From: Ianthella basta
Lineage: Eukaryota > Porifera > Demospongiae > Verongiida > Ianthellidae
Direction of reading: 5' to 3'
Length of the DNA: 64,000 nucleotides
Assembly (NCBI GenBank): GCA_964019415.1
Contig: OZ025877.1
Coordinates: 7,987,141-8,051,140 of the forward strand
Shown here: in pieces, positions 9,864 through 15,318 of the stretch
Layout: every line of letters begins with the position of its first letter
Numbering within the stretch: the stretch's first letter is position 1
Program-made: the position numbers and the translations under genes
Notes under the pieces: generated by a model
What the model saw: the letters and a program-made list of their open reading frames with translations, nothing else
Database searches by the model: none
Told to the model about the DNA's origin: nothing

Positions 9864-15318
<5,455 letters not shown>

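Follow-up and report, generated by a model that had tools for sequence, protein, structure and literature searches.

Does a gene of the sponge Ianthella basta whose zinc-binding motif reads HQLGH encode a natural pseudoprotease, and is it the ADAM10 orthologue of this animal, as an earlier note on the same DNA proposed? The gene lies in a stretch of 64,000 nucleotides (C10:7987141-8051140, hereafter the window) of a 209-Mb genome assembled in 96 contigs; coordinates without a contig name are positions in the window.

Gene model and family membership

The gene was assembled by hand from homology and from splice sites joining homologous stretches. It comprises 11 exons (9864-15318, plus strand) that encode 814 aa with 0 internal stops. 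All ten introns are GT-AG, partly by construction because GT and AG sites were sought by hand. Exon 1 (9864-9960) carries the ATG, a hydrophobic leader taken by eye as a signal peptide and a GT donor. Exons 2 to 4 encode the prodomain, which was assigned by alignment: exon 2 (10253-10436, AG/GT) is 33% identical (E 0.003) to a prodomain exon of three tandem ADAM10-like genes described below (the triplet), exon 3 (11306-11442, AG/GT) keeps the frame and found no match in the triplet in the exon comparison, and exon 4 (12083-12389) equals its triplet counterpart in length (307 nt). The first half of the metalloprotease-like domain is encoded by exon 5 (12543-12837; 47-49% identity to the triplet exon) and the second half by exon 6 (13159-13579), matched in the genome by PF13574 with 58.5 bits. 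The disintegrin domain is spread over exon 7 (13645-13783), which has a PF00200 match and the 139 nt of the triplet exon, and exon 8 (13872-14205; gene model and Pfam), which also encodes cysteine-rich sequence, as does exon 9 (14562-14641; gene model and triplet exon comparison). Exon 10 (14783-14980) encodes a stalk, a transmembrane helix recognized by eye and the basic stretch KSRKKKK. Exon 11 (15066-15318), placed by splice signals alone, follows an AG acceptor and encodes the cytoplasmic tail in 83 open codons before the stop.

Pfam models PF13574, PF13688, PF13582, PF01421 and PF00200 scored above the cut-off and PF13583 slightly below it. With a prodomain, reprolysin-like, disintegrin and cysteine-rich domains, a membrane helix and a tail, the gene belongs to the ADAM (M12B) family. 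The best match of the protein in the PDB is human ADAM10 (E 1.4e-55), followed by ADAM17 (E 9.1e-40) and, as the best match of a different kind, the snake venom protein ecarin (E 1.5e-13); judged by its nearest sequences among solved proteins, the gene falls in the ADAM10/17 branch. The signal peptide, disintegrin domain, membrane helix and tail that the earlier note described as intact were all recovered, the disintegrin domain by Pfam, the peptide and helix by eye and the tail as an open frame.

Kinesin motor exons (5360-5965) lie upstream of the ADAM gene and a RAI16-like gene (17417-20152) lies downstream. An open frame of 1113 aa at 23407-26748 has a Cadherin_3 match and is FREM/CSPG4-like. 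The strong strand skew at 44-52 kb probably stems from a large 10-bp minisatellite (46093-51409), which repeats the consensus ATCTTGCCTC about 530 times. An Rfam search of the whole window gave 0 matches. Elsewhere in the assembly, contig C96 (21,233 bases) is mitochondrial DNA, with nine internal TGA codons in cox1 and long open frames under code 4; one of its reading frames resembles atp9, a mark of demosponges, which makes a demosponge the likely source of the DNA.

Other ADAM genes of the genome and the question of orthology

A genome search for other ADAM10/17 genes, as suggested in the earlier note, returned five, a lower bound, and all of them carry HExGH. One, at C11:6.888 Mb on the minus strand, has the motif HEIGHNFGSFHD (HEIGH, continuing as HEIGHNFGS) with an intron within it, the switch stretch ETCGLSHD, the prodomain boundary RRQKR and the stalk CRPVDADG...NWIVSMWW, which we take to resemble that of human ADAM10. 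The triplet at C11:122-141 kb has HELGHNFGSNHD (HELGH), TLCGDES and RSKR. An ADAM17-like gene at C18:6.851 Mb has HEIGHGWGSDHD (HEIGH); an intron splits this motif, whose two parts were put together by hand. Relative to copy 3, the triplet copies (loci L016-L018, C11:122000-141000) show 90-99% identity in seven of nine exons and about 81% in an eighth; the ninth exon was detected in copy 3 only, and in copy tri2 a Gly replaces a conserved disintegrin Cys (NNQGMFTA).

The window gene had been called an ADAM10 orthologue. This assignment was rejected: the CRPVDADG stalk and HEIGHNFGS are found in the gene at C11:6.888 Mb, which is the orthologue (hereafter sponge ADAM10), and the window gene, whose stalk differs and lacks the VDADG...W block, is therefore a paralogue. 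Its metalloprotease and disintegrin domains align throughout with human and sponge ADAM10, but human ADAM10 has HEVGH, and sponge ADAM10 combines HEIGH with a prodomain Cys, the boundary RRQKR and a stalk of its own. Its intron plan is also another, as it lacks the intron that separates the two catalytic exons in the other genes. Six consecutive exons of the window gene and triplet copy 3 follow one plan (307/307, 295/292, 421/427, 139/139, 334/328 and 80/92 nt, respectively), and exon 6 is 47-49% identical to that of the triplet. The shared exon plan, set against the different plan of sponge ADAM10, groups the window gene with the triplet. The triplet differs from it in HELGH, TLCGDES, RSKR, the strand LGLAWV, the stalk and the tail. 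In a maximum-likelihood tree of 8 rows, used for nearest rows only, the shortest path from the window row leads to the triplet; the placement of the window row is drawn open, and the whole tree has no starred branch.

The split between the window gene and the triplet is old, since pS against copy 3 (0.728) is near saturation and exon 6 is only 47-49% identical. That pN (0.376) is below pS in this comparison speaks for the pseudoprotease reading, but with dS near saturation the difference cannot show constraint after the change of Glu to Gln. Glu is likely ancestral, being present in the other five sponge genes as well as in the human proteins ADAM10 and ADAM17. Judged by these sequences, the window gene looks like a diverged paralogue that is catalytically dead. 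The earlier suggestion of a second, active ADAM10 elsewhere holds in that the triplet and sponge ADAM10 carry HExGH; their activity is predicted.

In a search for orthologues in other organisms, two scans of viral contigs found no relative. At least 20 loci came from a scan of genome contigs; they lie in bacterial records and share 29-54% identity over short stretches. Among the matches listed in the viral and genome contig scans, none was a sponge relative.

Losses and retained features of the window protein

The zinc motif of the window protein (12 residues, 13384-13419) departs from the active-M12B signature HExGHxxGxxHD at the Glu. At 13387-13389, flanked by CAC (His416) and CTG GGA CAT, the in-frame codon CAA encodes Gln417 in place of the catalytic Glu, just as first read. 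The three zinc His, the Gly of the motif and the Met-turn (NFIMF, Met at 13471-13473) are kept, again as described before, and so is the Asp of the motif. Loss of the general base is a classic inactivating change in such proteases. In a study of mouse ADAM10, activity is lost in the E385A mutant, in which the replacement is Ala and not Gln (PMC7873107).

The window protein also lacks the prodomain Cys. After Cys4, which lies in the signal peptide, the next Cys is Cys253, and residues 5 to 252 hold no candidate for a cysteine switch; Cys is absent from the 14-residue stretch (12259-12300) opposite GEGTLCGDESLQDY, which carries the switch cysteine in the triplet, and the paralogues have ETCGLSHD and TLCGDES in their prodomains. 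The boundary between prodomain and catalytic domain (12358-12546, split by intron 4) reads SLSRR (residues 239-243), without the RxxR of RRQKR and RSKR in the relatives. The reduction of this site to SLSRR had been noted before and stands when read across the junction of exons 4 and 5; unmentioned then was RGLR (residues 232-235), a minimal RxxR that begins seven residues upstream and could still be cut. The substrate-binding edge strand reads SLGQAFQ (13216-13236) where the other ADAM10-like rows have LGLAWV or LGLAYV, and one residue is lost ahead of it in the alignment. A further difference lies in the stalk, which is not that of sponge ADAM10. In the edge strand of ADAM17, ligands are bound through the backbone NH groups of Leu348 and Gly349, and the non-prime site is lined by Leu350 (PMC12491190); with ADAM17 numbering transferred onto our alignment, the Gln of the window strand would fall at the position of Leu350. 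A structure prediction of exon 6 alone with three sequences gave a mean pLDDT of 34.6 and no usable model.

These losses bear on two other accounts of the Gln codon. CAA and GAA are one base apart (G to C), and the codon might be an assembly error or a rare allele, the true codon being GAA. This is most improbable, as the other protease-specific losses are independent of the base in question, and the long contigs suggest, without proving it, a good assembly. It is also very unlikely that the protein is still a protease in which Gln weakly substitutes for Glu and RGLR serves as the activation site. The three zinc His, the Met-turn and the RxxR-type RGLR are all in place for such an enzyme, but its general base is gone, a change that inactivates mouse ADAM10 (as Ala; PMC7873107), its prodomain Cys is missing and its substrate strand is altered. 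The reading as a natural pseudoprotease, raised as a question in the earlier note, is supported at sequence level by the change of Glu to Gln and by the losses in the prodomain Cys, the boundary RxxR and the substrate strand.

Beyond the catalytic half, the window protein keeps the disintegrin cysteines, the disintegrin and cysteine-rich domains, the membrane helix (by eye), after which KSRKKKK stands, and an open frame up to and including the 83-residue last exon. The window gene, the triplet, sponge ADAM10 and human ADAM10 were each counted as one unit, and deviations were scored in gap-free columns invariant among the other units. In the window gene, 10 of 51 columns of the catalytic domain deviate, and 3 of 41 of the disintegrin domain; the corresponding counts are 2/43 and 6/44 for the triplet, 4/45 and 7/45 for sponge ADAM10 and 5/46 and 3/41 for human ADAM10, or 11/134 and 16/130 for these three pooled. 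The catalytic excess of the window gene is modest (Fisher p 0.038), and the contrast between catalytic and disintegrin domains has p 0.046, or 0.052 when one triplet copy only is used. Counting gaps as changes, including end gaps of the shorter human ADAM10 row, gives p 0.010 for this contrast, and removing the gap columns brings it to 0.046. The excess is supporting evidence only, because columns are not independent and rows are few. A count over six units including ADAM17 rows, in which the window gene deviates in 4/31 catalytic and 0/16 disintegrin columns, was discarded because the partial sponge ADAM17 row deviates more (7/34 and 14/30, the latter mostly gaps).

The catalytic Glu has been lost a second time in this genome. 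In a tandem cluster of ADAM genes at C10:6.61-6.67 Mb, four places match the disintegrin domain and three catalytic exons are present; no catalytic exon was found for the fourth place. Two of the catalytic exons carry HELGHMFGLDHD (HELGH, with GAG, at 6614318 and 6671928) and one carries HALGHMFGLDHD (HALGH, GAG to GCG; C10:6652378, minus strand, locus L048), with LSIAP in place of LGIAP in its strand. Among nine ADAM zinc motifs of the genome (a lower bound), seven have HE, one HQ and one HA, and the Glu has thus been lost at least twice.

That HALGH stands beside HELGH sisters, and Glu loss is not rare in this genome, lends some weight to the view that the window gene is a dying duplicate, in which catalysis was lost by drift and the remainder is becoming a pseudogene with no present role. 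The HExGH paralogues could make it dispensable, and its catalytic domain has changed more than those of the other units. This view nevertheless appears unlikely, given 814 aa open over 11 exons with the disintegrin cysteines retained and changes in just 3 of 41 conserved disintegrin columns.

Proposed role and place among ADAM pseudoproteases

The most probable reading is that the product of the window gene is a pseudoprotease in the ADAM10 branch of the ADAM family, a type-1 membrane protein related by duplication to proteins that keep HExGH, whose head would bind without cutting. Under this proposal, the gene would have arisen by duplication from an ancestor shared with the HExGH ADAM10-like genes, as the common exon plan suggests. 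Its lineage would then have shed the general base, the prodomain Cys, the furin-type boundary and part of the substrate strand, and would have retained the zinc His, the disintegrin and cysteine-rich domains, the membrane anchor and the open tail; both sets of features can be seen in the sequence. The protein would be made and reach the cell surface, where its disintegrin and cysteine-rich head may hold partners or substrates uncut, and it may be a competitor of the intact ADAM10-like copies or a scaffold for them. Because its boundary site is weak, it may arrive with the prodomain attached; as a speculation, an unprocessed prodomain would fit a stable surface protein.

Engineered forms of ADAM10 (E384A, and E385A in mouse) are likewise full-length membrane proteins minus the general base (PMC2647556 and PMC7873107). 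They differ from the window protein in having Ala rather than Gln, and the mature form of mouse E385A persists, although strongly reduced, with comparable proforms (PMC7873107). Because overexpressed E384A is dominant negative in mice (PMC2647556), competition of the window protein with the intact sponge copies is plausible. A dominant-negative or adhesive role of the window protein, as raised in the earlier note, is possible.

The tail offers a further lead. It contains NPAY and YEMM, instances of the docking motifs NPxY and YxxM, together with a proline-rich run. Searched against the genome, the tail matched only itself (1 match), with no second copy, and the tails of triplet copy 3 and sponge ADAM10 differ from it. 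Shuffled tails contain NPxY in 2.9%, YxxM in 12.7% and both in 0.4% of cases, a rarity that is a lead only because the motifs were picked after being seen. The tail might mark a sheddase turned signalling adhesion receptor, whose head engages ligands or matrix but leaves them uncut and whose tail passes tyrosine-based signals inward. We regard this as a doubtful extension; if true, sponges made a signalling adhesion receptor out of a relative of ADAM10.

Dead ADAMs occur in several vertebrate lines and in the worm as UNC-71, and Table 2 of a 2024 review gives UNC-71 and ADAM2, 7, 11, 18, 22, 23, 29 and 32 as pseudoproteases; in the main text of that review, the word ADAM10 is absent (PMC11266112). 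ADAM7 resembles the window protein in its natural HQLGH (HQLGHNLGMQHD), kept His and Met-turn, integral membrane form and disintegrin domain, but it is close to ADAM28 and not to ADAM10/17, and has a role in epididymis and sperm (PMC11266112). A review of invertebrate Notch mentions two ADAM10/17 proteins in glass sponges (PMC10970066). Since human ADAM7 has the identical HQLGH, this kind of pseudoprotease is already known. No inactive member of the ADAM10/17 branch and no sponge ADAM10 pseudoprotease was recognized among the literature matches listed. To our knowledge, the ADAM10/17 sheddase branch is described as active. With support at sequence level, the window gene adds a putative case to the known ADAM pseudoproteases, in a branch without cases among the literature matches listed.

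The finding does not imply an animal without an ADAM10 sheddase. The window gene would be nature's parallel to the dominant-negative ADAM10 made in the laboratory, and, if the reading is true, the joint loss of the general base, the prodomain Cys and the furin-type boundary would mean that the ADAM10/17 branch, too, can yield pseudoproteases.
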